From Phyllobacterium sophorae (GTDB taxonomy: Bacteria; Pseudomonadota; Alphaproteobacteria; Rhizobiales; Rhizobiaceae), in assembly GCF_003010965.1 (NCBI RefSeq), contig NZ_PGGM01000003.1:62001-126000 (forward strand): a stretch of 64,000 nt of DNA. Direction: 5' to 3'. Shown piece by piece: positions 1 to 62,396 of this stretch; within the stretch, counting starts at the first letter, position 1, and every line of letters starts with the position of its first letter. The position numbers and the translations under genes are program-made. Under the pieces are notes generated by a model. The model was not told the DNA's origin, made no database searches, and saw only the letters and a list, made by a program, of their open reading frames with translations.

Positions 1-338
1 TCATCATCCAGAAAGACCAGAACATCGGCGTAGCGGGCTGCTACCTGGAGAATCCGGTTGCGCTGGCACGTCAAACCTCTTGGGGCGAGCATGAGTTCGA
101 CGCCAGGACAATCGGCAAGGCCGGCGGCATCCTCGCTGTCTGGCACGCAAACGAATATCCGTTCTGGGCGATTTTCCAAGCTGGTAAGATAGTCGACAGT
201 CTTTCGCAAAACCGCCGGGCGTCTCGCCGAAGCTATGCCAACGGCAGTCCTGATCTGAGGGCCTGCGCGCGTAGCCGCAGCCACGACTGGTTCGATTGTT
301 CCCCCTTGTCCGGTAATATCTGCGATAGCCACGGTCAT
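1..338 (-). CDS. Family 2-type glycosyltransferase, 3' part cut by window edge
   Basis: About 112 N-terminal residues are readable on the minus strand from an ATG at 338; the gene runs off the left edge. The protein opens with a short lead, then a stretch resembling the GT-A nucleotide-sugar fold of family 2 transferases (RTAVGIASARRP, then a conserved spacing to FVCVPDSED) and ends at LVFLDD, where the acidic pair fits the DXD-like metal/nucleotide site. The ATG overlaps the stop of the upstream Wzz-like gene by 4 bp (ATGA), so the two are translationally coupled. It probably adds a sugar to the exopolysaccharide repeat unit at the cytoplasmic membrane. The substrate cannot be told from this fragment. 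Confidence 0.72.
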   Translation of the reverse strand, partial: MTVAIADITGQGGTIEPVVAAATRAGPQIRTAVGIASARRPAVLRKTVDYLTSLENRPERIFVCVPDSEDAAGLADCPGVELMLAPRGLTCQRNRILQVAARYADVLVFLDD

Positions 339-2074
339 GACTCCATTCTCAGGGGTGCCTTGTTGATGACTGCGCCAAGCACGTCGGCGCCAACATTCCG
401 CAGGCTGTCGATAGCTCTGATAGCCTCGTCGATGGACGTGCGCCCGTGCCAGGTTATGACCAAGACCGCATCCAGAAGAGGCGCGATCGCATTGGCGTCG
501 GCCGATTCAGAGAAGGGCGAGATATCGACGAACACGGCGTCATATACTTTTTTCAGGCTTTCGAGATTCAACTGCGTGCGGCAGGAACTCAAGCGCATAG
601 CTGGAGTAACGCCCCGCACAGTGCCGAGCGGGAGAAATCGCAATGTGGGCATGACGGGCAATATCGCCTCGCGGAGAAGTTCGGCATCATCGAGAACGTT
701 GGCAAGGCCTATCGTGCTATCGGGCGCAATCGAACCGCTGAGGGATGGTTTGTCAGCGGCCGCATCGATAAGAAGTGTACGGGATCCCGACTCGGCGCAT
801 AAGACTGCAAGCTCGCAGGCTATCGTCGATGCTCCGCTCCTTCGATTGACACCGACGATTCCAATGACAACGACCTTTCGCTTCCGCCGGAGCCCTACCA
901 TCGTTGCACTTAGTTCCGCCATGCCCGGTATGAACGGATAGGTAATGGCGCTGCCGCTGTCAGCCTCGGCCGCCAAAAACCCACCGGGTCGACCCTTCCG
1001 GGTTTTCCCCGAATTTGCCAGCGATGTGACGAAGGGTACGCCCGCTGCATCTGCGAACCGTCGGACCCGAACGATACGGCGGTCGCCGGCGTGGCGAATC
1101 ATGCCGAGCATCGCACCCGCACTCGCTCCCAACACAGACGCAAAGCCGATAATGAGTGCACTGCGCGGCCGTGCCTTGGAAAGCGGCGAGGTCGCTGGCG
1201 AAACGATCGTGGCATCAGATACGGGGTCGGATATGCGCTGCTTGGCCTCGGAATATTGTGTAAGAGTACTCTCATAGAGCGCGCGGCGGGCCGCAGCGGC
1301 ACTTTGCAGTTCTACGAGCTTGAACTGATCACGCGGGTTACTCTTGAAGCCGGCAAGGTCATTGGCCGCGTCGGTCAGTCCGCGCTGTTGTTCGACCAGG
1401 AACTTTTCCAGCCAATCGCTATACTGCTGAGAGGCCTGGGCCTTCATCAGCACATTTTTCCGGATGTATTCCCGCGCAACGGTATCGGCAATTGCCACAG
1501 CCTTTTTGGCGGTGGATGCGGAGGCCGAAATCTCGAGGATCATCGAATGCCCGATCTGACGCATTGCCACGTTGTTTCGCAATCTGGCAATGGCGCGATC
1601 TGATTTGTTCGTTGCTCCTGCCGCAGGGCCTGTCGTCCCCCGTGACTCCGGATCGTCGGTCAAACTCCGCGCCAGCCAATCCTTTCCGGTGTCAAGCAGC
1701 GAAGGTGCGCTGCGGGCAAAATCGGGGTCGTTGGCGAGGTCGAGCGATTTCGCCGTTGCACCGAACACATCGTTGGACCTGGCAATTTCCAACTGGGCCT
1801 CCAGAAATGCGTCTTCGGCGAATGCCTTCTGCGCTTCAGAACCATTCAGCTTAGGAGAGACGAACAGCTGCGTGGTCGCAATATAAGTGGGCTGGGCAAT
1901 CAGGAGGTAACCCACAGCCATCGCGACGAAGATGCTGGTCGTAATGACGATCCATCGCCACCGCATCCGTAAGAAAAACTGTATGTCCCGGAGGGTCAGT
2001 GGCGAGCTCTCCCTAGGGCTCGCGCTGGGCAAGGATATCGACGAAACACCGCTGAATGTGTGGCTGGAAGTCAT
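335..2074 (-). CDS. Wzz/BY-kinase-like exopolysaccharide chain-length protein (ExoP/GumC type)
   Basis: About 579 aa. A Wzz-type membrane domain begins with a transmembrane segment near residues 41-60, followed by a periplasmic coiled region with Gln/Ala-rich helices and a second membrane segment near 306-328. The C-terminal half resembles a P-loop BY-kinase domain (VVVIGIVG, then GVNRRSGAST, and a Walker B-like AVFVDISP near 512-519). The P-loop lacks the usual Lys before Ser/Thr, and there is no tyrosine cluster at the C-terminus, so kinase activity is doubtful; a co-polymerase role controlling chain length or export is the better guess. I chose the ATG at 2074 over a TTG 15 bp upstream because a purine-rich GGATGAG precedes it. 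It is followed by the GT2 gene with a 4-bp overlap and preceded by the priming transferase, all on one strand. Confidence 0.85.
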   Translation of the reverse strand: MTSSHTFSGVSSISLPSASPRESSPLTLRDIQFFLRMRWRWIVITTSIFVAMAVGYLLIAQPTYIATTQLFVSPKLNGSEAQKAFAEDAFLEAQLEIARSNDVFGATAKSLDLANDPDFARSAPSLLDTGKDWLARSLTDDPESRGTTGPAAGATNKSDRAIARLRNNVAMRQIGHSMILEISASASTAKKAVAIADTVAREYIRKNVLMKAQASQQYSDWLEKFLVEQQRGLTDAANDLAGFKSNPRDQFKLVELQSAAAARRALYESTLTQYSEAKQRISDPVSDATIVSPATSPLSKARPRSALIIGFASVLGASAGAMLGMIRHAGDRRIVRVRRFADAAGVPFVTSLANSGKTRKGRPGGFLAAEADSGSAITYPFIPGMAELSATMVGLRRKRKVVVIGIVGVNRRSGASTIACELAVLCAESGSRTLLIDAAADKPSLSGSIAPDSTIGLANVLDDAELLREAILPVMPTLRFLPLGTVRGVTPAMRLSSCRTQLNLESLKKVYDAVFVDISPFSESADANAIAPLLDAVLVITWHGRTSIDEAIRAIDSLRNVGADVLGAVINKAPLRMES

Positions 2075-2167
2075 TTCATTCTCATCCAAAATCGCTGGTG
2101 GCCATATGCTTCGCTTGGGAAAGCGGAGAGGTCTGGACAGGTAGGGAGCGTTCTCCTTTGAGCAGGG

Positions 2168-2878
2168 CTAGTACGAGCCGCGGTGCGAAAACAGGACCGG
2201 AACTGTCTTCGCCATGATCACAAAGTCCCAGGCGAGCGACCAGTTTTGGAGGTACTGAACATCAAGACTGACGCGTTGCTGGTAGCTGACATCGTTGCGT
2301 CCGCTGATTTGCCAGTGCCCCGTCAGGCCCGGGCGGCCGGCCATATAGGACCAAACATGCTCTCCATAAAGGGGGAGTTCCTCGCAGGTGATTGGCCGTG
2401 GGCCCACGAGGCTCATCTCGCCCCGCACGATGTTGATCAGTTGCGGGAGTTCGTCGATGCTTGATTCACGCAGGATTCCGCCGACGACCGTAACTCTGGG
2501 ATCGTTCTTTAGCTTTCGGGTTGCCTCCCATTCAATTTTCGCTTCTGGATTCGCATTCAGCAATTCCGTGAGATGAGCGCCTGCATCGGTTTTCATCGTG
2601 CGAAACTTGAGACATTTGAACGAAGCGCCGCCCAAGCCAATCCGGGTGTGAGAATAGAACACCGGGCCCCCATCACTGAATTTTACGATAATCGCTACTA
2701 TCAGGAGAAGCGGCGAAAGCAGCAGCAGCGCGGTACTCGCGATAATAACGTCCACAATACGCTTGGAGGATCTGCCGATCGGCTCGGATATGGCCCCCCG
2801 CTGCCTTCTTCCTTGTTCGGTCTTTGCGACGCCTGACCAGGATTTGCCAACTTCAATTCGCTGTGCTTCCCACGTCAT
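2168..2878 (-). CDS. exoY: ExoY-like undecaprenyl-phosphate sugar-1-phosphate transferase
   Basis: 236 aa. This is a bacterial sugar transferase that starts lipid-linked repeat-unit assembly by moving a hexose-1-phosphate onto undecaprenyl phosphate. A single membrane hairpin lies near residues 42-66, followed by the family motifs KFRTM (about 91-95), DELPQLINIVRGEMSLVGPRP (about 142-162) and the C-terminal GRPGLTGHWQISGRN block. Length and ending match S. meliloti ExoY-type proteins, which are short and lack the N-terminal membrane domain of WbaP. The ATG at 2878 has GGGAGA upstream; a TTG directly before it is less likely. It is first in a minus-strand operon with the Wzz-like gene (93-bp gap) and the GT2 gene. 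The sugar specificity is inferred from ExoY and not proven. Confidence 0.88.
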   Translation of the reverse strand: MTWEAQRIEVGKSWSGVAKTEQGRRQRGAISEPIGRSSKRIVDVIIASTALLLLSPLLLIVAIIVKFSDGGPVFYSHTRIGLGGASFKCLKFRTMKTDAGAHLTELLNANPEAKIEWEATRKLKNDPRVTVVGGILRESSIDELPQLINIVRGEMSLVGPRPITCEELPLYGEHVWSYMAGRPGLTGHWQISGRNDVSYQQRVSLDVQYLQNWSLAWDFVIMAKTVPVLFSHRGSY

Positions 2879-3215
2879 CAATCGTCTCCCAGAATGTTCC
2901 GGTTAGATCCAAAGCTTGATGCAGCGCAACCGGGTTGTCTGTGACCGAGGTCATAATCGAGGATAAAAATCGATGCTAATAAAGTAATAGAGCACAGAAA
3001 GTCGCTTCGATAGTTAGTCTAGACTAGATCGAACGGATTAGTTCTAGATAATTCGATCTAGATTTATAGATGTTCTGTCTGTCAATTCGAGGCGAACTTT
3101 GGATTGAGACTTCACGCGTGAAATCATTAATTCAATTGGATCGATGGATCTTGGACACCAACACGAAGACAAGAAGCGAGTTAGTATAGTTGCCGACGAC
3201 TTTTGGAGAGCCCCG
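2879..3215. promoter_or_regulatory. Divergent promoter region of the exopolysaccharide locus with CTAG-centred palindromes
   Basis: This 337-bp AT-rich gap separates the two arms of the polysaccharide locus. A perfect 12-bp palindrome TAGTCTAGACTA lies at 3015-3026, and an inverted repeat CTAGAT-N6-ATCTAG at 3044-3061. Such paired dyads in a divergent promoter are typical regulator sites. No protein can be assigned to them from sequence alone. Confidence 0.5.
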
Positions 3216-4547
3216 ATGAGCGATAGAAGCCAAGTTGGTCGTGATCCAAATCGCTCGGCTCGTTCGGCGATAGGTGTTGAACGCGTGGTCATTATCGATG
3301 ATTACTCCACCGCGCGAGGTGGCGCGACCGCGCTGTCGCTGCTTTCCGCCAAGCTTTTTCGAAGCTCCGATATCCCCGCGACTTACATTTGCGGCGACGA
3401 CGGCGTAAATGCAGAGCTCGCCGCGATCGGGGTCTCTGTTATTCCACTTCACGGCCGCGATCTGATGAACGCCGAACGTACCAAAGCCTTCGTTACCGGC
3501 ATCTACAACATCTGTGCGGCACGGATGATCGCGGCGTGGATTCTTGCAAACGACACTCCACACACGGCCTATCACGTTCATGGTTGGTCCAAGATACTAT
3601 CGCCGGCGGTATTCAGTGCGCTGGGGCCTGTGGCCAGACGATGTGTGGTGCACGCCCACGATTTCTTCATGGCTTGCCCCAACGGCGCGTTCTTTGATTA
3701 CCAGGCGCAAGAGATCTGTCTCCGACGTCCGCTTGGAGTTGGCTGCATGGCGACCACCTGCGATAAGCGAAGCTATCCGCACAAATTATGGAGAGCGGCC
3801 CGGAGCTGGAATGTCGTTCGCCTTTTAAGAAATCATGGCGAATTCGGCAGAATTATCCTGCCGCACGAAAAAATGGCGAGCTTCTTCCTTAAGGCCGGCT
3901 TTCAGCCCGAACGCCTGAAAACAATCCGTAATCCAGTCGCTCGATTTTCTGCCGAACGCGTTGCGGCGGAGAGCAATGACGAGTTCATCTTTATCGGCCG
4001 CCTGGACGAGGAAAAGGGTGTGGAAGACGCAGTGGCCGCAACGCGCAGAGCAGGCGCAAGGCTTTGCGTAATTGGTGACGGGCCACTCATGAAGCGGGTT
4101 GCAACAGCTGGAGAACACGTCAGGACTCTCGGCTGGAAGTCGCATGCGGAGATCGGATCAATCATCCGCCAGGCGAGCGCACTTTTGATGCCCTCGCGCT
4201 ATCCTGAACCCTTTGGCCTCGTCGCCATTGAAGCGGCCGGGTGCGGTATCCCCGTCATCCTGTCTCGAAGTGCGTTCCTTGCCGAGGAGATGCAGGCGGC
4301 AGGCATAGCGCTTTCATGCGATACCAAGGACGAGCGGGCCTTCTCAGATACTTTGACGACATTTCGGCGAATGCCAAAACACGAGGTTCGCCAGATGAGC
4401 GAGCGGGCCTTCCGGCTGTCGCAAAACCTCGCATCGACGCATGAAGAATGGCGAGACGCGCTTCTTGCACAATACAGCAGCTTGACTTCCGAAAGTATGG
4501 CGCTCCGGCCGTCGGACGCGCTGATTGTATCAGGAGCCTCGAGATGA
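3216..4547 (+). CDS. Family 4 glycosyltransferase (GT-B fold)
   Basis: 443 aa from the ATG at 3216, which has GGAGAG five bases upstream; an in-frame ATG at 3144 would add 24 residues without family resemblance. The N-terminal Rossmann half begins with VVIIDDYSTARGGA, a donor or acceptor-binding glycine-rich loop. The C-terminal half has the GT4 signature: FIGRLDEEKGVEDAV, VIGDGPL, LGWKSHAEI, and the E-x7-E catalytic region PSRYPEPFGLVAIEAAGCG. It acts in the cytoplasm on lipid-linked exopolysaccharide intermediates. Its stop overlaps the ATG of the next glycosyltransferase (ATGA), so the two are probably made together. The acceptor and linkage are unknown. Confidence 0.87.
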   Translation: MSDRSQVGRDPNRSARSAIGVERVVIIDDYSTARGGATALSLLSAKLFRSSDIPATYICGDDGVNAELAAIGVSVIPLHGRDLMNAERTKAFVTGIYNICAARMIAAWILANDTPHTAYHVHGWSKILSPAVFSALGPVARRCVVHAHDFFMACPNGAFFDYQAQEICLRRPLGVGCMATTCDKRSYPHKLWRAARSWNVVRLLRNHGEFGRIILPHEKMASFFLKAGFQPERLKTIRNPVARFSAERVAAESNDEFIFIGRLDEEKGVEDAVAATRRAGARLCVIGDGPLMKRVATAGEHVRTLGWKSHAEIGSIIRQASALLMPSRYPEPFGLVAIEAAGCGIPVILSRSAFLAEEMQAAGIALSCDTKDERAFSDTLTTFRRMPKHEVRQMSERAFRLSQNLASTHEEWRDALLAQYSSLTSESMALRPSDALIVSGASR

Positions 4548-5788
4548 CCTTGGAAGCGAGCACACCACTGCCGAAAGCGATGGCGTTTCTGACAGATCCA
4601 CCAACGGTGGCGCCAAGTTCAGCCGGCAAAATCCGCAGCCGAAGCGAAACGGAGCATCTTCGCGTGGCCATTGTGCATTATTGGCTCGTATCGATGCGCG
4701 GTGGCGAGAAGGTGGTTGAGGAGCTTTGCCAAATGTTTCCGCACGCCGATATATTCACCCTCGTCTGCGACCCGGAGCGCCTCAGCGACCGTTTGAAGAG
4801 ACGCAACATTCGCACCTCCTTTCTGCAAAAGATTCCCGGTGCGAAACGCCACTACCCAAAAATGTTGCCGCTGATGCCCTTCGCGCTCGAGCAATTCGAT
4901 CTGCAGGATTATGATCTGGTGTTGTCGAGCGAATCCGGGCCAGCAAAAGGCGTGATCACGCGGGCAGATGCCCTTCATATTTGTTACTGTCATTCGCCGA
5001 TGCGCTACATTTGGGATCAATTCCATGTGTACCAACGTGGGCTTCCGTGGCTGGGTCGGGCGTTGATGTCCGTCACTGCTCCAATATTGCGGGCGTGGGA
5101 CGTGACGACCGCTTCAAGGGTAGATGTCTTCGTGGCGAATTCCAACTACGTGGCGAGCCGGATACGGCGCTATTACGATCGCGAGGCCGCGGTCATCCAT
5201 CCACCGGTTGCAATCGAAGATTTTGCGATTCGCGAGGGCAGGGGTGAGTTCTATCTCTATGCGGGGCAGCTGACGGCCTACAAGCGTCCCGATATTGCCG
5301 TTCAGGCTTGTACCGAGACAGGCAGGAAATTGGTCGTGATAGGCGAGGGTGAGCAAGCAGCTTTCCTGAAGTCGATCGCCGGACCCAACGTTGAATTTCT
5401 GGGCCACCAACCCGTCCACGTCCTGAGCGACCATCTCGCACGGTGCCGCGCCTTGTTGTTCCCCGGAACGGAAGATTTCGGAATTCTGCCTGTGGAAGCA
5501 ATGGCATCGGGGCGGCCAGTTTTGGCTTATGACGCCGGCGGTGCACGGGAGACCGTCTCCACACCCCATGTCGGTTTTCGCTTCGCACCGCAGAGCAAAG
5601 AGGGCCTGATTGAAACGATGGCAGCGTTCGAGGCGGTCGAAGACGATTTCGATCCAAATGCGATCCGCGCCCATGCCGAGAAATTCTCCTCCGCGGTATT
5701 CCGAAATCAACTCACCGCCCTGATCGAAAATGAATTGTCCAGGCAAACCGAACCCTCCGCTCATTCTATGCCAAGATGGTCGAGCTGA
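4544..5788 (+). CDS. Family 4 glycosyltransferase
   Basis: 414 aa from the ATG at 4544, which overlaps the upstream stop by 4 bp. It has the GT-B layout: an N-terminal half starting at VAIVHYWLVSMRGGEKVVEE, typical of rhizobial exopolysaccharide GT4 enzymes, and a C-terminal UDP-sugar-binding half with YLYAGQLTAYKRPDIAVQA, VIGEGEQ, LGHQPV and the E-x7-E region FPGTEDFGILPVEAMASGRPV. It likely adds another sugar to the repeat unit built on the ExoY-primed lipid. It is separated by 126 bp from the flippase gene on the same strand. The specific donor sugar is not predictable here. Confidence 0.87.
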   Translation: MTLEASTPLPKAMAFLTDPPTVAPSSAGKIRSRSETEHLRVAIVHYWLVSMRGGEKVVEELCQMFPHADIFTLVCDPERLSDRLKRRNIRTSFLQKIPGAKRHYPKMLPLMPFALEQFDLQDYDLVLSSESGPAKGVITRADALHICYCHSPMRYIWDQFHVYQRGLPWLGRALMSVTAPILRAWDVTTASRVDVFVANSNYVASRIRRYYDREAAVIHPPVAIEDFAIREGRGEFYLYAGQLTAYKRPDIAVQACTETGRKLVVIGEGEQAAFLKSIAGPNVEFLGHQPVHVLSDHLARCRALLFPGTEDFGILPVEAMASGRPVLAYDAGGARETVSTPHVGFRFAPQSKEGLIETMAAFEAVEDDFDPNAIRAHAEKFSSAVFRNQLTALIENELSRQTEPSAHSMPRWSS

Positions 5789-5914
5789 TGGCCTGCGCAT
5801 TGTGCAGTCAGGGCATTGTGGGTCCTGATCCGTCGCGGGCTGCGCTCGGAATCGTTCGGACCCCCGAGAGATTGATTGGTTTATTGCAATCCAGTGCAAT
5901 CGACGAGGTTAGTC

Positions 5915-7396
5915 GTGTCAAGCGTATCGCATAGGACTGCCACCGCGAGTCTCTGGACCATTGGCGGAAAATTGTTGGCGCGAATGCTGGATTTCGTGAG
6001 CCTGCTGGTGCTGGCGAGGCTTCTGAGGCCAGAAGATTTCGGCCTGGTCGCCATAGCAACGTCGGTTTTGGTAATAGTCGAAGCAATTCTCGACCTTCCG
6101 CTGAATCAGGCTTTAATCCGTCAGCCCGCCCTCACAGCACGGATGCTTGACACCGCCTTTACCCTGGGCGTCCTTCGGGGGGCGGCCATAAGCCTTACAA
6201 TGGTCACCATCTCCTGGCCGATCGCTTTTTTCTACGGCGACCCGCGACTTGTCCCGCTTGTCGCCACTCTCTCCATCGCGCCCACCATGCGCAGCCTCAT
6301 CAGTCCTCGCATGGTTCTTTTCATGCAGCGCTTTGATTTCAAGCGCGAATTCGCGCTTGATATCATTACCAAGGCAGCGACGCTCCTATTCGCGGTGAGT
6401 GTAGTACTGACGACGGGCAGTTACTGGGGATTGGCTATCGGAGCGATCGCGGGACCATTTGCCGCGGCAATTACCTCGTATGTCTTCGCACCGATGCGTC
6501 CGCACCTGACCCTCTCCGAGTGGAGCCGCTTTCAAGACATGATTGGTTGGAACACAGTCTCTCAAATCTTGAGCTCCATTAACTGGCAACTGGATCGGCT
6601 TCTGCTGCCCCGCTTTACGAGTCTGTCGATGTTTGGCGCTTTCAGCGTGGCGGACAATCTTGCCGGAATTCCGCATCAAACTTTTGTGGGGCCGTTGATG
6701 CGCCCCCTGATGGCGGCATTTTCAAGTGTAGAGGAACATCGCAAGCTGGTGGCAGCCTATCTCAAGGCGACAAGCGCCATCACCTTGGTCGCTGCTCCCG
6801 TTCTCTTGATAATCGCCTTTCTTGCCGAGCCGATCGTGCGCATCACTGTCGGCGAGAACTGGTCCCTTGCCGCCCCCATTCTTCGATGGCTCTGTGTAGT
6901 CAGCGTGATGGGCCTTCCATCAACCATGATGCCGGCGCTGGCGATGGTGTTGGATAATACTCGCTACGTTGCGTTCAGGATGTTGGTGGAGTTCGCTGTA
7001 AGAGCACCTTTGACGCTCGTGGGCATAGCCTATTTCGGGCTCGTAGGAGCAATCGTTGCTCGACTCATGGCAATGTTCGTGGCCTATGCCGCGTCAATGG
7101 TCATCGCAAAACGGCTGATCGGAGCGACGTGGGGCGCACAACTCCATGCTTTCGTTAGACCGCTTGCCGCGACCCTGCCAATGATCGGCTTTCTGGCCTG
7201 CGTGGAGCCCATGCTGGCGCCAATGCCTGTGGGCCTCAACCTTATCGCCGGTTTGACGTTGTGCGGCGGAGCTGCGCTGCTGATCTTTTGGGCCGGTGCA
7301 TTGCTGCTTTGGCAACTCGCCGAAAAACCCGATGGCCTTGAAGCCATCGTCGTTCAGAAACTTTCGCCACGAAGGAAGAAAGCGATCACCTCGTGA
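5915..7396 (+). CDS. Polysaccharide flippase, Wzx/PST type
   Basis: 493 aa if translation starts at the GTG at 5915, which has GAGG six bases upstream; an upstream TTG at 5876 has no such site. The protein is strongly hydrophobic with about 12-14 membrane helices spread from FVSLLVLARLL near the N-terminus to the final LLIFWAGALLLWQL. It resembles the MATE-like polysaccharide transporters that flip undecaprenyl-linked repeat units across the inner membrane; the N-terminal SLWTIGGKLLARMLDFVSLL is typical of rhizobial ExoT/lipopolysaccharide exporters. It lies between the glycosyltransferases and the glycanase, as expected for a Wzx/Wzy pathway. No Wzy polymerase is visible inside this window. 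Confidence 0.85.
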   Translation: MSSVSHRTATASLWTIGGKLLARMLDFVSLLVLARLLRPEDFGLVAIATSVLVIVEAILDLPLNQALIRQPALTARMLDTAFTLGVLRGAAISLTMVTISWPIAFFYGDPRLVPLVATLSIAPTMRSLISPRMVLFMQRFDFKREFALDIITKAATLLFAVSVVLTTGSYWGLAIGAIAGPFAAAITSYVFAPMRPHLTLSEWSRFQDMIGWNTVSQILSSINWQLDRLLLPRFTSLSMFGAFSVADNLAGIPHQTFVGPLMRPLMAAFSSVEEHRKLVAAYLKATSAITLVAAPVLLIIAFLAEPIVRITVGENWSLAAPILRWLCVVSVMGLPSTMMPALAMVLDNTRYVAFRMLVEFAVRAPLTLVGIAYFGLVGAIVARLMAMFVAYAASMVIAKRLIGATWGAQLHAFVRPLAATLPMIGFLACVEPMLAPMPVGLNLIAGLTLCGGAALLIFWAGALLLWQLAEKPDGLEAIVVQKLSPRRKKAITS

Positions 7397-7441
7397 TCGA
7401 AATCATTGACGCCTGGATTGGCATCTTCGGAGGAGCAAAAG

Positions 7442-8269
7442 ATGCATCGCTCTTTATCTGCCAAACGCTTTATGACCGCTGCTGCTTTCATGCTCCTGGT
7501 CGCAATCGACCAGCCCGCGCGCGCGCAGGAGCAGATCGACATCGCCAAGTTCGACATGACGTTGGAGGAAAACTTCGACAAGCTGGACGTATCCCCCTGG
7601 GGTGAGAACGGCTCACGCTGGATTGCTCACACACCTTGGAACGGTGATTTCGGCGATGCCCGTTTCACCGACCCTACAGACGGATTTCCCTTCACCGTTG
7701 ATGCCGGAGTTCTGCGTATCGAGGCTCGCAAAGGACCCGATGGAAAATGGCGTTCGGGCCTTCTGGCGTCAACGAATCCCAAAGGACAGGGCTTCTCGCA
7801 GCAGTTCGGTTACTTCGAGGCGCGCATGAAGTTGCCACCGGGAAAGGGAGTCTGGCCGGCTTTCTGGCTGATCGGGATCGATCGCTCGAAGTTGACCGCA
7901 GAAATCGATGTGATGGAATATTACGGCCGGGTTCCGTACGAATTCAGTAGCGGCTATCACATCTGGCGCGCGAGCCACGGTGGTAAGGATTCCACGGACG
8001 GCCATTGGACTACGGTCGAAGATGGAACATTGAGCAACGAGTTTCATACCTATGGGGTAGAAATCAAACCGGAGAAAACAACGGTTTACCTTGATCGCAA
8101 GTCCATATGGAGTTTCGACACGCCGAGGGAGTTCCACATGCCATTCTACCCGTTGGTAAATCTAGCGTTGGGATCGGGATGGCCGATCGATGAGACGCCA
8201 AATCCCTCCTATTTGCTCGTAGACTATATTCACGTTTACAAGCGAAAGGCGCCAGATACCGCCGATTGA
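7442..8269 (+). CDS. Secreted GH16 endo-beta-glycanase (ExoK-like)
   Basis: 275 aa from the ATG at 7442 with a strong GGAGGAGC site. An N-terminal signal peptide (basic MHRSLSAKR, hydrophobic core, cleavage near ARA-QEQ at residues 26-31) directs export. The catalytic motif of family 16, EIDVMEYYG, sits at residues 154-162, with E154 as nucleophile and E159 as acid/base. Flanking FGYFEARMKLPPGKGVWPAF is also typical. Such enzymes (ExoK, ExsH) cleave nascent beta-glucan-containing exopolysaccharide and set its size. It ends the plus-strand arm, 45 bp after the flippase, and so probably acts on the polymer made here. Confidence 0.9.
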   Translation: MHRSLSAKRFMTAAAFMLLVAIDQPARAQEQIDIAKFDMTLEENFDKLDVSPWGENGSRWIAHTPWNGDFGDARFTDPTDGFPFTVDAGVLRIEARKGPDGKWRSGLLASTNPKGQGFSQQFGYFEARMKLPPGKGVWPAFWLIGIDRSKLTAEIDVMEYYGRVPYEFSSGYHIWRASHGGKDSTDGHWTTVEDGTLSNEFHTYGVEIKPEKTTVYLDRKSIWSFDTPREFHMPFYPLVNLALGSGWPIDETPNPSYLLVDYIHVYKRKAPDTAD

Positions 8270-8635
8270 CCTAGCGCTCGAAGAAGAGGCGTTAATGTCG
8301 TTTTTGTGGCGACGACCAATCCAGGGAGCAACGGTGATCTTCGCCGCAGTTGTCGCATCTGGCGCATTCGTCTCGCGCTTGCCGCTGCCGTCATGACGTT
8401 TTCGCGTTCTCGTGTTGCCGACCTTAGGTATAGGACCGATGCCGCATTGCAAACTGGACTAAAGTCCGATTTCGGCACAGCCAATATTTGGTAGGAATGA
8501 CGCCTGCATTTTCTGCCGCGGTCGGCTGCGCATTGGAACTTGCCGGGGCGATCGCACCCAGAGGGGACTCTCGACCACTAGTGGACACTCTGAAGCATCC
8601 GCTAGGGCCACCAGATTGCGTTTGGGAGTTTGTCC
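8270..8635. other. Intergenic region without recognisable gene
   Basis: No convincing reading frame is seen. A perfect 10-bp palindrome CCACTAGTGG lies at 8575-8584, about 50 bp before the Crp/Fnr gene, and could be a regulator site. Otherwise nothing is recognised. Confidence 0.4.
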
Positions 8636-30175: not shown

Positions 30176-30742
30176 TTACTGCGGTAGGGACTGCTGGGGA
30201 GCTTCCAGCATGTCGTCACGGGACTTTTCACCCAACATTTCCAAAAGGTGGGCCTTGGCCCTATTCAATCTGCTCTTGACGGTACCAATGGGGCAGTCAC
30301 AGATTTCTGCAGCTTCGTCGTAACCAACACCCATTACACAAACGAGCATAATAGCTTGCCGGAAATCTGGATCGAGCTGATGCAAAGCAGTTTCAAGTTC
30401 ATGACCCCGGATAGTCCACTCCTGCGATGCAGGCCTTGAAGGTCCTACTTCAGCAATATCTTGTTGACTGCCTGTGACCTCCCTGAGCCGGCGCTTTATC
30501 GCCGTATTGAAAGTATTTCTCATGATGGTGAACAACCATGACTTCATACTCGTCCCCGGTGTAAATTGGTTCAATGATCCAAGTGCTTTTTTGAGCGTTT
30601 CTTGGACCAGATCGTCGGCTTCATCTGGATTTCTATAGAATGACCTTGCGAATGCCCTTAACGCCGGCACAAGAGCAACAAGTTCCGCCCTGGAGTTGAT
30701 CTCCAACTTGAAATCTCGATAAATGGGATCGATTGCAACCAT
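30176..30742 (-). CDS. ECF sigma factor, EcfG-like
   Basis: 188 aa with AGGAGGTGAC just before the ATG. Region 2 (ALVPALRAFARSFYRNPDEADDLVQETLKKAL, then FTPGTSMKSWLFTIMRNTFNT) and region 4 (LETALHQLDPDFRQAIMLV, YDEAAEICDCPIGTVKSRLNRAKAHLLEML) match the EcfG (ECF15) group, which drives the alphaproteobacterial general stress response. The usual anti-sigma NepR and anti-anti-sigma PhyR genes are not adjacent, so this is likely a paralogue. Its own upstream sequence carries GGAAC-N16-CATT. It probably recognises the GGAAC promoters around it, although a master EcfG elsewhere could do so. Confidence 0.9.
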   Translation of the reverse strand: MVAIDPIYRDFKLEINSRAELVALVPALRAFARSFYRNPDEADDLVQETLKKALGSLNQFTPGTSMKSWLFTIMRNTFNTAIKRRLREVTGSQQDIAEVGPSRPASQEWTIRGHELETALHQLDPDFRQAIMLVCVMGVGYDEAAEICDCPIGTVKSRLNRAKAHLLEMLGEKSRDDMLEAPQQSLPQ

Positions 30743-33961: not shown

Positions 33962-35188
33962 TTAATGCCTCTTGTATTGGCCGAACAAATGCTTCTGTAA
34001 TTTCAATTCTTCCGCGAGGGGCACATGTTCCTCACGGCGGCCTGCGTCGGGAAGCGATGACAAGAGACCATTCCGACACAGGCGACTATCATCCCAGCCA
34101 AGATGTTCAAGGATTGGATAGAGGCAGATTCCTTCCAAAGGCACCCCAATTGAGATAGCTTTGCGGGCTTCCGCGCAGACATACCGCAGCCATGCCGGCC
34201 GCGCATCATCTTCGATCCCCGTTTCGGCGACGAATATCGGCTTTTTGTATCGGATGAATGTTTCCAGTAACAGTGAACTCAGCGGTCTGTACCGAGAGTC
34301 GTCCACGGCGAGAGTATCGCCTTCCAAAATCCACTGATTGTGTGAATAGTAATTCACCCCAATGATATCGAGGAGATTTTGCTGGCCTCCAAGCTGGGGC
34401 CAGGATGAGCCACAAATCATATCCCAGGATTCGAATTGGGCTCGACGGTGGCCTTCTGCTGCCTCATGCTCCCATGGTCGAGCAGAATCCGCCACGACAT
34501 TAATAATAGGATCACAATGGACAAAACGGGCTCGGGGATCAATGTCCAGTATGGCATGCATAGCTGCAATCGACGCTCGCACCAATTGGACCTTCAATTC
34601 AAACCCCCGCGCGCGGGCGAAGGGATTGAGATAACCCACCTGGCCGCCGCCCCAGGCCATGAACGAAATTTCGTTTATTGGAGCGTAAAACGGAATGCTG
34701 TCACTATGTTCTTTTATTATTCCGGCAGCCGCGGCGGCGAAGGAAGCAAAGCGCGCCACAAATTCCGGTTTCCAGATATCGATCCCGCAAGGCCAGCCGT
34801 AATGCAATAAGTCCCAAATTACCTGAGTGCCCGTCTCGCGGGCAGCTTGCAGCATGGGAAGAAAACTATCCCAATGGTAGATTCCCGCAGTACCTTCGAT
34901 CAAATGCCAGCGAATTCCATCGCGAACCGTTGATATGGAATGTTCGCTCAATTGGGAGTAGTCGGCTGCTGCGGAAATATCGTGTTTTGTTGAAGCGATT
35001 ATGTCGAGGCGACGCCCAGAAGCCAATTGATGGGTGGAGCATTCAAACCCGCCTTGAAAGAAGGACTGGAACAGGTTGGGGGCCGGAATCCCATCCAATA
35101 CTGCATGGGGGTCAGGTTTTTGACCGACAAAATCCCTTCTGCGTGGCAGCATCATCAGCTTCTCAATGTGGAGAGCAGTTGACGACAC
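33962..35188 (-). CDS. Glycoside hydrolase family 1-like protein
   Basis: 408 aa. A TIM-barrel glycosidase pattern is seen: WDLLHYGWPCGIDIW (about 125-139), the acid/base Glu in YAPINEISFMAWGG (about 167-180), YYSHNQW, and the nucleophile Glu in KKPIFVAETGIEDD. Length and motifs fit a GH1-like or GH-A clan enzyme, though some spacing differs from classical beta-glucosidases. No signal peptide is visible, so it is probably cytoplasmic. It begins 4 bp after the glycosyltransferase/UGM fusion gene and is presumably cotranscribed. The start (GTG 35188 or ATG 35155) is uncertain. The substrate is unknown; a galactofuranose- or glucan-related role is only suggested by its partner. Confidence 0.75.
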   Translation of the reverse strand: MSSTALHIEKLMMLPRRRDFVGQKPDPHAVLDGIPAPNLFQSFFQGGFECSTHQLASGRRLDIIASTKHDISAAADYSQLSEHSISTVRDGIRWHLIEGTAGIYHWDSFLPMLQAARETGTQVIWDLLHYGWPCGIDIWKPEFVARFASFAAAAAGIIKEHSDSIPFYAPINEISFMAWGGGQVGYLNPFARARGFELKVQLVRASIAAMHAILDIDPRARFVHCDPIINVVADSARPWEHEAAEGHRRAQFESWDMICGSSWPQLGGQQNLLDIIGVNYYSHNQWILEGDTLAVDDSRYRPLSSLLLETFIRYKKPIFVAETGIEDDARPAWLRYVCAEARKAISIGVPLEGICLYPILEHLGWDDSRLCRNGLLSSLPDAGRREEHVPLAEELKLQKHLFGQYKRH

Positions 35189-35192
35189 TCTC

Positions 35193-37541
35193 TCATGATC
35201 GCAATACCACCCTTCCCTCGCCGATCGAGAACGTCTTCAAGCGGCGATAGGTAGCCAAGGCTTGGCCCACGACCTGATCCATATTGTAGTATTTATAAGT
35301 GCCTAGTCGACCGACGAAGGTGACGTTGGGACTTGCTTTGGCAAGTTGTTCATATCTCTTAAAAAGAGCCTGATTTTCCGGACGCGGGATCGGATAGTAT
35401 GGGTCACCCTCTGAGCAAGCAAATTCATAGCTCACGCTGGTTTTCGGGTGAACTTGTCCAGTCAGGTGCTTGTACTCGGTAATGCGAGTATAGGGTATTT
35501 GTTCTGATGGATAGTTTACCACACCCACGGGCTGGATCCGCCGCCTATCGTACGTTTCATGTTTAAACTGCAGACTTCGATAGGGAAGTGCTCCGAAAAT
35601 GTGCTGGTAATATTCATCGATTGGTCCGGTAAAGATCGTATGAGCCGACACATGCTCTTTGCGAACCTCGGAAAAGTCTGCATCCAGCAGTATGTCGATG
35701 TTGTCGTGATCAAGCATATTCTCAAACATGTGAGTATAGCCATGAAGTGGCATTGCTTGGATACTGTCCTGAAAGTAACGATCGTCTGTGCTCGTGCGCG
35801 TGGGTATGCGCGCAGCGACAGACTTATCGAGCTCGGAAGGGTCGAGTCCCCATTGCTTGCGCGTGTATCCCTCAAAGAATGTATGGTAAAGATCCCGACC
35901 AACAGCGGCGATAACCACATCCTTTGAAGAAATGATCGCCTCTACGTTTTCTGCGCAGCTAGTGAGAAAGTCCGCCGCTTGTACGTCATTTCGAAGGTCG
36001 AGCCCATAAAGTCCATTGAGGGTAGTGCGATTGATCGGGATCGGGAGCAAGGTTCCCGCCACATCAGCAAGGACGCGATGCTCATAAGCCCGCCAGGCAG
36101 TGAATCTCGAAAGATAAGAAAAAATTGCATCGTTGTTGGTATGAAAGATGTGAGGGCCGTATTTGTGGACAAGGATACCGCTGCGATCGTAAAAATCGTA
36201 AGCGTTGCCGCCCACGTGAGGGCGACGATCGCACAGCAGGACGCGTTTGCCACCATCTGCGGCCAAGCGCTCCGCCAGCACTGAGCCGGCAAATCCCGCG
36301 CCGACAATGAGACAGTCATACCCCCCGCCGGAACCTTTGCGCCGACACAGCGGAGGATGGGAAACATCCTGAACAGATTGCGTTTTGCGAGCCATTGCGG
36401 CGTTAATGTGCCCGTTCATCTGATTGAACGTTTCATCCCAAGTGCAGGTCGCAAGGATTTCATCCGCGTCCACTAACCATGAATCATCCGAATTCTTTAA
36501 TGAAAGCGCCTCATCACAAAGCTTGATGAACTCCTCGGTGTCGCCAGCGATAAACACCCCTTTGACACCACCATAATGACGAACGACATCCCTGATTGGA
36601 GTCGATACTACGGGTCGACCAGCTGCGAGGTACTCAGGTGTCTTAGTTGGGCTTATGAAGCGCGTAGCGTCGTTCAATGCAAAAGGCATGATCGCCACGT
36701 CCCACGCAGCCAGATAGTCCGGAAGCTCTGCATAGGGGACCTTACCCGTGTAGTGGATATTGGGCGCGCGGGGCAGATCACTTTGGGAAATCTTTGCGAC
36801 AGGTCCAATCAACTCAATCGACCATTGTGGTCGAGCCGCCGCCGTCGCGGCGACTAACGCCAGATCCAGCCGTTCGTCGATAACGCCACAATAACCCAGC
36901 TTCGGACGGTTTATGGTTTTACGATTAAGAGTGGTTGAAGGTCGGTTGCGGGCGATGCGAAAGTGTTCGATGTCAACCCCGGATGGAAAGGGATGAATGT
37001 TGTCGTGAAGCAGCCGCTTTGCTTCAAACAGACTGTATCCACCTGTGAATACGACATCTGCTCTGCGTATTAACTCGACTTCCAATTCATGCAAACGCGC
37101 CGGGGCGCCAAGAAAGTTCGCCAATTCGTCCATGCAGTCGTAAACCACAAGTTCGGTATCGATTGCACTTGCGAATTCATACATCATCGGGGTGTAAAAC
37201 CAGAAGTTTGGTTTTCGCCCCCCGCTCAAATGAATGAGTTGGACGACAAGTTCTTCCAGCGCATCCCGGGTTTCGCTCTGCGAGAATGCATGGGGAACGC
37301 GAGGACGCACGCACTTGACCGCGGATCCCTTAAATGCATGAAATTCCAGGTAAGGCGCGTAGTGATCAGTTCCGATCGATTCCTCGAAGAAGAATACTTG
37401 TCGCTGGATGGCAAAACGTTCCATGAGATGCTGTGGTCTCTGATAGACAAAATCCCATCTAAGGTGAGAAAAACATATAAGAGGGCCAAGGACTTCTGCA
37501 TTGTTGGGATGAAACGCAGTATAATTATCTTGGATGTTCAT
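35193..37541 (-). CDS. glf: Glycosyltransferase / UDP-galactopyranose mutase fusion
   Basis: 782 aa from the ATG at 37541 (AGGAG upstream); an upstream ATG at 37616 would lie before the candidate promoter. Residues about 1-380 form a GT-B transferase (FSHLRWDFVYQRPQHLMERFA, KLGYCGVIDERLD, PTKTPEYLAAGRPVVST). Residues about 395-780 are UDP-galactopyranose mutase: FAD loop DCLIVGAGFAGSVLAERLA, VGGNAYDFYD, GPHIFHTNN, RKQWGLDP, and YPSEQIPYTRITEYKHLTG. Glf converts UDP-galactopyranose to UDP-galactofuranose, and the fused transferase may use that product. A GGAAC-N16-GGTT promoter lies 35 bp upstream and a glycosidase-like gene directly downstream. It could also have arisen by fusion of separate neighbours. 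Confidence 0.9.
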   Translation of the reverse strand: MNIQDNYTAFHPNNAEVLGPLICFSHLRWDFVYQRPQHLMERFAIQRQVFFFEESIGTDHYAPYLEFHAFKGSAVKCVRPRVPHAFSQSETRDALEELVVQLIHLSGGRKPNFWFYTPMMYEFASAIDTELVVYDCMDELANFLGAPARLHELEVELIRRADVVFTGGYSLFEAKRLLHDNIHPFPSGVDIEHFRIARNRPSTTLNRKTINRPKLGYCGVIDERLDLALVAATAAARPQWSIELIGPVAKISQSDLPRAPNIHYTGKVPYAELPDYLAAWDVAIMPFALNDATRFISPTKTPEYLAAGRPVVSTPIRDVVRHYGGVKGVFIAGDTEEFIKLCDEALSLKNSDDSWLVDADEILATCTWDETFNQMNGHINAAMARKTQSVQDVSHPPLCRRKGSGGGYDCLIVGAGFAGSVLAERLAADGGKRVLLCDRRPHVGGNAYDFYDRSGILVHKYGPHIFHTNNDAIFSYLSRFTAWRAYEHRVLADVAGTLLPIPINRTTLNGLYGLDLRNDVQAADFLTSCAENVEAIISSKDVVIAAVGRDLYHTFFEGYTRKQWGLDPSELDKSVAARIPTRTSTDDRYFQDSIQAMPLHGYTHMFENMLDHDNIDILLDADFSEVRKEHVSAHTIFTGPIDEYYQHIFGALPYRSLQFKHETYDRRRIQPVGVVNYPSEQIPYTRITEYKHLTGQVHPKTSVSYEFACSEGDPYYPIPRPENQALFKRYEQLAKASPNVTFVGRLGTYKYYNMDQVVGQALATYRRLKTFSIGEGRVVLRS

Positions 37542-37575
37542 CAGGACTCCTATATTGGCAGGTTTGTCCTTAGCG

Positions 37576-37600
37576 AACCTCCGGGAATGAATTAGGTTCC
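37576..37600 (-). promoter_or_regulatory. Candidate EcfG-type promoter
   Basis: On the minus strand GGAAC (37600-37596), 16 bases, GGTT (37579-37576), 35 bp before the ATG of the glf fusion. It supports the shorter start of that gene. Confidence 0.5.
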
Positions 37601-37857
37601 TTAATATGGGGAACATGTACTATATCGCACATAATTTTAAGCTTTAAGTGAGCGGCATTTGAACCTGGGTTCGGGAACTGAACGCGCATTTTCAGCCGGT
37701 TAAGCCCGAACCGGGCCAGCCCTTCTGGCGCGTCAAATCTTTATCTCCGCGGAACTGGCCTCGCTAAGGTCGCATGGGCTCACAAGAGTGCGTTCGGCAA
37801 CTTGGTTCCCAAGAAGCTCGTCAGGCGATTATCACTGATCTGGATATTTGGAACGTT

Positions 37858-61559: not shown

Positions 61560-62396
61560 TTAGTGGTCGTCCAAAGACCCTTGCGCATAGAAATGGGCGC
61601 GGATCATTCGCGTATAGGAGGCAAATTCCGGGGTAGCCATTACATTCAACGAACGCGAGCGCGGCAAATCAATGTCATAAGTTGCCGCAATTGACCCTGG
61701 ACGTTCACTCATCACGATGACGCGGTCGGAAAGAAAGACTGCCTCCGGGATACTATGGGTAATGAGCAGGACTGTCTTTCGAGATTCAAGCCAGATGCGT
61801 TGAAGTTCGATGTTCATCTTCTCCCGGGTCATTGCATCCAATGCGCCGAACGGTTCGTCCATTAACATGACCGCCGGATCGTGCAGCAAGGCTCTGCAGA
61901 TCGACGCACGTTGCTGCATGCCGCCGGAAAGCTGCCATGGATATTTTTTCTCAAAGCCTTTCAGACCGGCCATCTCGATAAGCTGCTGCGCGCGCTTTCG
62001 CGCCGCAGCCATATCCATTCCCCGCATTTCGGCCTGAAGCAGAATATTGTTGCTCACATTCCGCCACGCCATGAGCACAGCATTTTGGAAAACAATGCCG
62101 ACATTCGTCTGTGGCCCAACGATGCGGCGGCCACCGATTCTTATTTCACCTCCTGAGGCGGGCGCGAGGCCGGCGACCAGTTTGAGCAACGTGCTCTTGC
62201 CGCAGCCCGAGGGACCGACCACGGAAACGAACTCACCTTCGTTGATGGAAAGGTCTATCGGGCGCAATGATTCCGTGGGGCCATCGCGCCCTGGATAGGT
62301 CTTCGTTACTCCCCGTACTTCGATTAACGGCACGTGGATTTTTGGAGGTTGGGCGGTTGGGCGCGCAGCGTCTTTCTTCATCGAAACAGCTAACAT
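61560..62396 (-). CDS. ABC transporter ATPase, nitrate/sulfonate/taurine type
   Basis: 278 aa. Walker A GPSGCGKST near residue 61, Q-loop IVFQNAVLMAWRNV, signature LSGGMQQRASICRALLHDP, Walker B VMLMDEPFGALDAMTREK and H-loop LLITHSIPEAVFL are typical of SsuB/TauB ATPases. It is last in a minus-strand operon (permease, binding protein, ATPase) and energises that importer. The substrate may be a sulfonate, pyrimidine precursor or similar; the family alone does not decide. Confidence 0.93.
   Translation of the reverse strand: MLAVSMKKDAARPTAQPPKIHVPLIEVRGVTKTYPGRDGPTESLRPIDLSINEGEFVSVVGPSGCGKSTLLKLVAGLAPASGGEIRIGGRRIVGPQTNVGIVFQNAVLMAWRNVSNNILLQAEMRGMDMAAARKRAQQLIEMAGLKGFEKKYPWQLSGGMQQRASICRALLHDPAVMLMDEPFGALDAMTREKMNIELQRIWLESRKTVLLITHSIPEAVFLSDRVIVMSERPGSIAATYDIDLPRSRSLNVMATPEFASYTRMIRAHFYAQGSLDDH

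Follow-up and report, generated by a model that had tools for sequence, protein, structure and literature searches.

A glycosyltransferase-mutase fusion gene and a GH1-like gene of Phyllobacterium sophorae as a probable reduced galactofuranose module of the general stress response

The locus studied here raises the question of what is made, and under which conditions, by a polypeptide that carries both a glycosyltransferase (GT) and a complete UDP-galactopyranose mutase (Glf) domain and that is encoded next to a GH1-like glycosidase (GH1, glycoside hydrolase family 1; the gene and its product are called GH below). It lies in Phyllobacterium sophorae, in a stretch of 64,000 nucleotides (positions 62,001 to 126,000 of contig NZ_PGGM01000003.1, assembly GCF_003010965.1), which in its full length is referred to as the window. 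An earlier note, made by a model from the letters alone, had assigned the two genes to positions 33962-37616 and had proposed a stress-induced glycoside pathway; both open reading frames (ORFs) are indeed there. We read the pair, at a probability of roughly 60%, as the reduced form of a widespread module whose product would be a glycoside or glycolipid with galactofuranose (Galf), made within the general stress response of Alphaproteobacteria. The features on which the argument draws are the following.

35193..37541, minus strand: GT-Glf fusion gene in its probable true extent, from ATG 37541 to the stop at 35193-35195 (ORF listed to 37616)
36384..37484, minus strand: GT-B (GT4-like) glycosyltransferase domain, residues 45-411, from PF13692 and the folds matched by model m043be42dad47
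35244..36320, minus strand: Glf domain, residues 433-791, from TIGR00031; best solved match 3hdq
33962..35188, minus strand: GH1-like glycosidase or transglycosidase gene, start codon uncertain, from profile, fold and invariant Glu residues
34670..34672, minus strand: codon of E173 in an NE motif, GH1 acid/base position, invariant in 12 sequences and aligned with NEP of GH1
34223..34225, minus strand: codon of E322 in an ETG/ETS motif, GH1 nucleophile position, invariant in 12 sequences and aligned with TENG of GH1
37576..37600, minus strand: EcfG-type promoter GGAAC-N17-GTT upstream of the fusion, from a motif search, conserved in relatives
37547..37551, minus strand: Shine-Dalgarno AGGAG, 5 nt before ATG 37541, from the sequence

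Co-occurrence of the two genes was determined in three samples of genomes (genus, order and phylum), with the distance measured from GH to the GT gene, the latter alone or fused to Glf. When the samples were pooled and the own genome included, a GT gene lay within 5 kb in 33 of the 37 distinct genomes with GH, which disposes of the concern, raised in the earlier note, that the two might rarely be found together elsewhere. Among the 19 other genomes of the genus sample, six carried a GH orthologue, each of them with the fusion within 5 kb (6/6), and one more carried the fusion alone. The order sample yielded GH in 22 of 297 genomes, the own one included; 20 of these 22 had a Glf of the high-scoring type (at least 450 bits), compared with 7 of the 275 genomes lacking GH (Fisher p 3e-23, relatedness ignored), and the two genes lay within 5 kb of each other in 19 of the 22. 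The exceptions were a genome with both on different contigs (G169), one with none (G244) and one in which the contig ends inside the GT match (G284). Order-sample genomes having only a lower-scoring Glf (38-47% identity) were without GH (0/9). GH occurred in 13 of the 398 genomes of the phylum sample, with GT adjacent in 12; four of the 13 overlapped the order sample, and of the nine new ones eight had an adjacent GT and one (G486) had none. One phylum-sample genome (G668) held a second, lone GH besides a GH-GT-mutase fusion like that of Pantoea.

The same three activities are, moreover, joined to one another in several arrangements (GH was recognised by tblastn, the remaining domains by Pfam). 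A GT4-GH fusion occurs in Pararhizobium and, as judged by annotation extent, in Sinorhizobium; Comamonas has a GH-GT fusion with a separate glf; Pantoea carries GH, GT and mutase in one chain of 1236 aa, and Enterobacter ludwigii shows Pantoea's domain order with an open frame from GH to GT, the join covered by the test. The FAD domain of the Pantoea chain matches 3ute (1.6e-44), the UDP-galactopyranose mutase (UGM) from Aspergillus, so that the slot is taken there by a mutase from a different lineage. In Methylomagnum the GT is joined to an FAD domain 61% identical to Pantoea's, followed by GH2, galT, galK and GH. This repeated joining, in which two mutase lineages take part, is the strongest argument that the parts act on one product, and the fusion of both lineages to the same GT provides strong genomic evidence for a requirement for UDP-Galf; if UDP-Galf is required, the product should be directly searchable by mass spectrometry.

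These arrangements also bear on a different reading, in which GH would degrade or recycle the Galf glycoside of the fusion, making the pair a reversible stress store and not a joint biosynthesis, in loose analogy to trehalose synthesis and trehalase. The position of galT and galK between GT-mutase and GH in Methylomagnum would fit galactose re-entering UDP-Gal, and the retaining-type Glu pair of GH is intact; against this, the single polypeptide of Pantoea would bring synthesis and breakdown together, and the known bacterial Galf-hydrolases belong to GH43, GH51 and other families, none of them to GH1. We consider such a store unlikely. As a separate observation, the gene row on the Methylomagnum plasmid (L054:3434-11185) resembles a galactose-to-galactofuranose route.

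Neighbourhood probing of 58 stretches of up to 30 kb each, 51 of them with a GH match over 150 bits, showed that the module occurs in two larger forms. In type A, GT, Glf and GH are accompanied by an ATP-binding cassette (ABC) exporter with ABC membrane and ATPase domains, and an exporter at least 50% identical to that of Azospirillum was found in 18 of the 51 GH stretches (query counted; the other 17 at 55-70%). Type B, found mainly in rhizobia, consists of GT4, GT-Glf, GT4-Gfo/Idh-ADH and GT4-GH; its Gfo probe matched at 50% identity or more in 7 of the 51, and the module is incomplete, at a contig end, in one metagenome-assembled genome labelled Chloroflexi, which is possibly misbinned. Within the window's genus, type B is found in one genome (G005, L147), next to DUF892 and to a KatE that is 84% identical to the window's, and the exporter in another (G006, L163). 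The window's version, with GT-Glf and GH only, is a reduced module; the 1076-aa GT4-Gfo-ADH protein had no match at 1e-20 in its genome, in a search run without a positive control. In Sinorhizobium sp. C101 (L045:15450-17587) the Gfo/Idh and ADH part of type B matches in several pieces and is perhaps a decayed gene or the result of sequencing errors.

Type B adds three GT4 domains as well as the sugar oxidoreductase domains Gfo/Idh and ADH, so several sugars may be involved, and the fold of the GT is closest to those of sucrose-phosphate synthase (SPS), MshA and PimB'. Both points would suit a GT that takes an ordinary pyranose donor while the mutase serves another transferase, the whole being an envelope oligosaccharide cluster with Galf as one of several sugars. 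We regard this as quite improbable, given that the smallest versions (window, Pantoea, Comamonas) have no nearby second GT4 of the kinds probed and that the GT is fused to two different mutase lineages. The full type B of the congener L147, set beside the two genes of the window, could further be taken to mean that the rhizobial cluster is decaying here, with the pair as its remnant and its ancestral product no longer made in the window's lineage. Yet neither reading frame is interrupted, protein identity per domain to four further genomes of the genus amounts to about 77-89%, and promoter and catalytic residues are intact; decay of this kind appears very unlikely to us.

The proposed part in the general stress response is suggested by the promoter. 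A GGAAC-type promoter had already been named in the earlier note, and the element was found to be kept in relatives: a search for GGAAC-N16-19-GTT within 300 bp upstream of GT, the GT being placed by homology, identified it in 32 of 40 alphaproteobacterial loci, with a spacing of 17 in 23 cases and of 18 in 10, and spacers diverge even within the genus while the motif stays. Dinucleotide shuffles of these upstream stretches gave a mean of 0.65 and a maximum of 4 in 200 trials, and the antisense motif occurred in 5 of the 40. The motif was not found at the 8 GT loci outside the Alphaproteobacteria, upstream of 11 ordinary glf genes or within GT genes (44,487 bases). In type B, the first gene of which is another GT4, it stood upstream of three of five such genes. 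The window's promoter agrees with the EcfG motifs GGAAC-N17-20-GTT or GGAAC-N16-CGTT given in two studies (PMC6599016, PMC3892343), the second of which reports EcfG as exclusive to Alphaproteobacteria (PMC3892343). For Sphingomonas melonis, a table of PMC6599016 lists, among the EcfG-dependent genes, the neighbours #1750 'Glycosyltransferase' and #1751 'Glycosidases', which may or may not be related to the module. Conservation of the promoter thus suggests that the operon would be under EcfG control during stress.

The 64 kb of the window contain 15 EcfG-type sites as compared to 4.97 expected. It was observed that 13 of the 15 (GGAAC-N16-18-GTT) cluster at 22900-45800, among genes for DUF892, an ECF-like (extracytoplasmic function) sigma factor (30176-30742), transglutaminase-like proteins, a Crp-like regulator and an HWE kinase; this part of the window is likely a general-stress gene island. 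We reject membership of the module in the exopolysaccharide locus at the left end, which was recognised by eye among the ORFs at about 335-8270 and from which the earlier note had kept it apart: its distance from that locus and the neighbourhoods of relatives, in which the modules stand apart from such genes, support this separation.

The domain assignments are consistent with synthesis of a Galf compound. The Glf domain scores 356.7 bits with TIGR00031 over its whole length (cut-off 303.75) and 7.8e-79 with PF03275. Its best solved match, 3hdq (residues 429-794, 532 bits), is the UGM of D. radiodurans, in which R198, R305 and W184 bind the substrate; GAGFAGS, QWG, ARIPTR and YTRITE of the window's domain align with it, so that the FAD motif and the substrate Arg and Trp positions are present. 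This strong homology, known active-site positions included, argues for interconversion of UDP-galactopyranose (UDP-Galp) and UDP-Galf. In the GT part, the group 1 domain PF13692 was detected at residues 238-370 (8.3e-13, 49.2 bits; cut-off 27), and an AlphaFold model (m043be42dad47, pLDDT 86.1) has the GT-B fold, in agreement with the transferase assignment of the earlier note. The solved structures closest to this model, SPS, MshA, GumK, PimB' and BshA, share 10-17% identity with it, and among them are enzymes that make small glycosides or phosphatidylinositol mannosides; such matches do not specify donor or acceptor. It is the fusion to Glf that points to UDP-Galf as the probable donor.

For GH, the earlier note had expected a GH1-like barrel with two Glu residues and no signal peptide, and this description held. 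The AlphaFold model (pLDDT 84.8) has its best solved matches in GH1 beta-glucosidases, from about residue 36 to residue 405 (Z 35.9 and a root-mean-square deviation of 2.8 over 347 residues to 3zjk_C, at 19% identity), with a GH1-type TIM barrel, and E173 and E322 at the catalytic positions of strands 4 and 7 are conserved in 12 of 12 homologues; a profile of these 12 sequences also retrieves GH1. As the protein stays under the family cut-offs (Pfam 18.4, gathering 22.6; TIGR03356 29, cut-off 478.5), we name it GH1-like and do not file it as a GH1 member. It is 79-83% identical in three Phyllobacterium records. Its start is uncertain (GTG 35188, an ATG at residue 12 or 13, or later) because the four nearest relatives share no sequence before about residue 26, and the gap to the fusion is the 4 bp noted earlier (35189-35192). 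In Phyllobacterium bourgognense (L033, between 6767 and 8004), about 1.2 kb separates fusion and GH. No signal peptide was evident when the sequence was inspected by eye, without a predictor, and the protein is fused to cytosolic partners in other bacteria, which disfavours a secreted catabolic glycosidase. A search of 50,697 phage records, made with GH, found nothing similar, nor did GH match any of the PADLOC defence profiles, to which the fusion gave one match of 14.8 bits (E 0.0032). Matches of the GH C-terminus to pentatricopeptide repeat proteins look repeat-driven, the three shown having no stretch that reaches 6 bits.

Apart from this, three of the seven order-sample genomes that have the mutase and no GH orthologue carry another glycosidase nearby, as if the slot had been refilled; five of the seven were covered by this check, the regions of G104 and G140 lying outside it. 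Two have a GH1-clade gene other than the GH orthologue near the mutase (G129/L146, G311/L149), and a GH2 gene is near the mutase in G189/L150 and in one of these two. In G102 and G264 no other glycosidase was found among the probes used. The genes are:

L146:12053-13216, L149:7300-8409, L149:4218-6011, L150:12657-14450: alternative GH1-clade or GH2 genes

The ORF listed for the fusion (35193-37616, minus strand) has 807 codons, and the upper limit given in the earlier note corresponds to its first codon. This start is probably wrong. Homologues begin to align at residue 20-22 or later, except for the near-identical record of Phyllobacterium sp. A18/5-2, which aligns from residue 1; a Shine-Dalgarno sequence precedes ATG 37541 (residue 26 of the listed ORF); and the promoter falls inside the listed ORF, its first base 59 nt upstream of this ATG. 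These three points together favour ATG 37541. The A18/5-2 record (NZ_CP104967.1 1216399-1220055, L173) is the closest to the fusion (95% protein identity) and carries almost no annotation; fusion and GH each match it in two pieces, and both genes may be frameshifted or misread there.

A frameshift artefact, which the earlier note had considered as a possible origin of the fusion, or an assembly artefact is ruled out by open frames in other species. Within the genus sample, the GT-Glf frame is open in all eight genomes with both domains of the window's type (own, G002, G005, G006, G008, G009, G013, G018), and it is open as well in Pararhizobium, Sinorhizobium, Azospirillum and Nitratireductor; Skermanella, Mesorhizobium and Deinococcus QL22 have GT and Glf as two adjacent genes. 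Among 47 loci chosen for a tree, the frame is open in 18 and the domains are separated in 29, in 28 of them by a frame change with stops and in one (L078) by a single in-frame stop. The fused and split states need at least three changes on this tree, and the fusion has thus been gained and/or lost more than once. In the whole 6.35-Mb genome of the window it is present as a single copy, three further matches being short and confined to the FAD-binding end.

Taken together, we propose that an EcfG-type sigma factor would switch the operon on under stress, that the Glf domain would turn UDP-Galp into UDP-Galf, and that the GT-B domain would pass a sugar, most likely the Galf of its partner domain, to an acceptor that is a lipid or a small molecule. 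The GH1-like enzyme would then trim, recycle or transglycosylate the product in the cytosol, a role suggested by the intact Glu pair, the absence of an evident signal peptide and the cytosolic partners to which it is fused elsewhere. To judge by the gene order, the product is probably flipped or exported in other bacteria by an MsbA-like ABC exporter dedicated to it.

Several results weigh against this proposal. In the co-occurrence data, 4 of the 37 GH genomes are without GT within 5 kb (three if G284 is counted as adjacent), and of the 27 among 297 order-sample genomes with the high-scoring Glf type, 7 have no GH orthologue. Two phylum-sample genomes (G510, G527) have a GH-GT fusion adjoining an ordinary Glf of 38-39%, and a third (G432) has such a fusion with no mutase found beside it. 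In D. radiodurans (L050:11944-14983) the GH domain shares a chain with an acyl-CoA dehydrogenase domain and a PIG-L deacetylase gene comes next, and neither GT nor glf is present in the 25 kb examined. An exporter of the module type is absent from the window's genome, where the best match is 38%. The exact promoter motif is missing at 8 of the 40 loci (L012, L036, L038, L075, L076, L091, L093, L096), and the 40 are related and not independent tests; where GH is not downstream of GT-Glf, the motif lies on the GH strand in only 6 of 22 loci and on the opposite strand in 15 of the 22, since many GH genes diverge from GT. Finally, the folds closest to the GT model are not those of UDP-Galf enzymes, their donors being of the UDP-Glc, UDP-GlcNAc or GDP-Man type.

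A more far-reaching view, which we hold tentatively and at somewhat less than even odds, is that GT, a bacterial or eukaryotic-type mutase and a GH1-like transglycosidase of the cytosol work together as a single machine for the synthesis of an undescribed general-stress Galf glycolipid or small glycoside, which the dedicated ABC exporter flips in the fuller versions. Such a machine would be patchily distributed over Alphaproteobacteria, Enterobacterales and Deinococcus, among others, and probably horizontally spread.

Many effector genes of the alphaproteobacterial general stress response are unassigned, and galactofuranose is known mainly from the surfaces of pathogens. If our reading is true, one defined output of this response is an envelope or glycoside product based on galactofuranose, and the GH1-like enzyme, cytosolic and in some bacteria fused to a GT, would be an uncommon example of a glycosidase fold that has been put to use in synthesis. 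The parts belong to known families and the proposed kind of function is Galf glycoconjugate synthesis. Full-text searches, with most subscription journals and supplementary regulon tables outside their scope, gave no paper describing the module or the fusion among the matches listed; in the main texts, the word 'galactopyranose' is absent from PMC6599016, and 'mutase' and 'glycosyl' are absent from PMC3892343.

When compared to known systems, the window's mutase shares its whole domain with the bacterial UGM (Glf, 3hdq) and differs from it in being joined to a GT in one chain; it is of the bacterial type, in contrast to the eukaryotic-type UGM (3ute) that occupies the equivalent slot in the Pantoea fusion and, by its likeness to Pantoea's domain, in Methylomagnum. 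With GT4-type GT-B enzymes such as TuaH, MshA, BshA, PimB' and SPS, the GT has the fold and the C-terminal group 1 domain in common, whereas its identity to the solved structures is low and it scores 100.9 against a TuaH cut-off of 550. GH shares the fold and both catalytic Glu positions with GH1 beta-glucosidases; these, however, have NEP and ENG where the window's protein has NEI and ETG, and the latter stays under the family cut-offs and is linked to a glycosyltransferase and a mutase.

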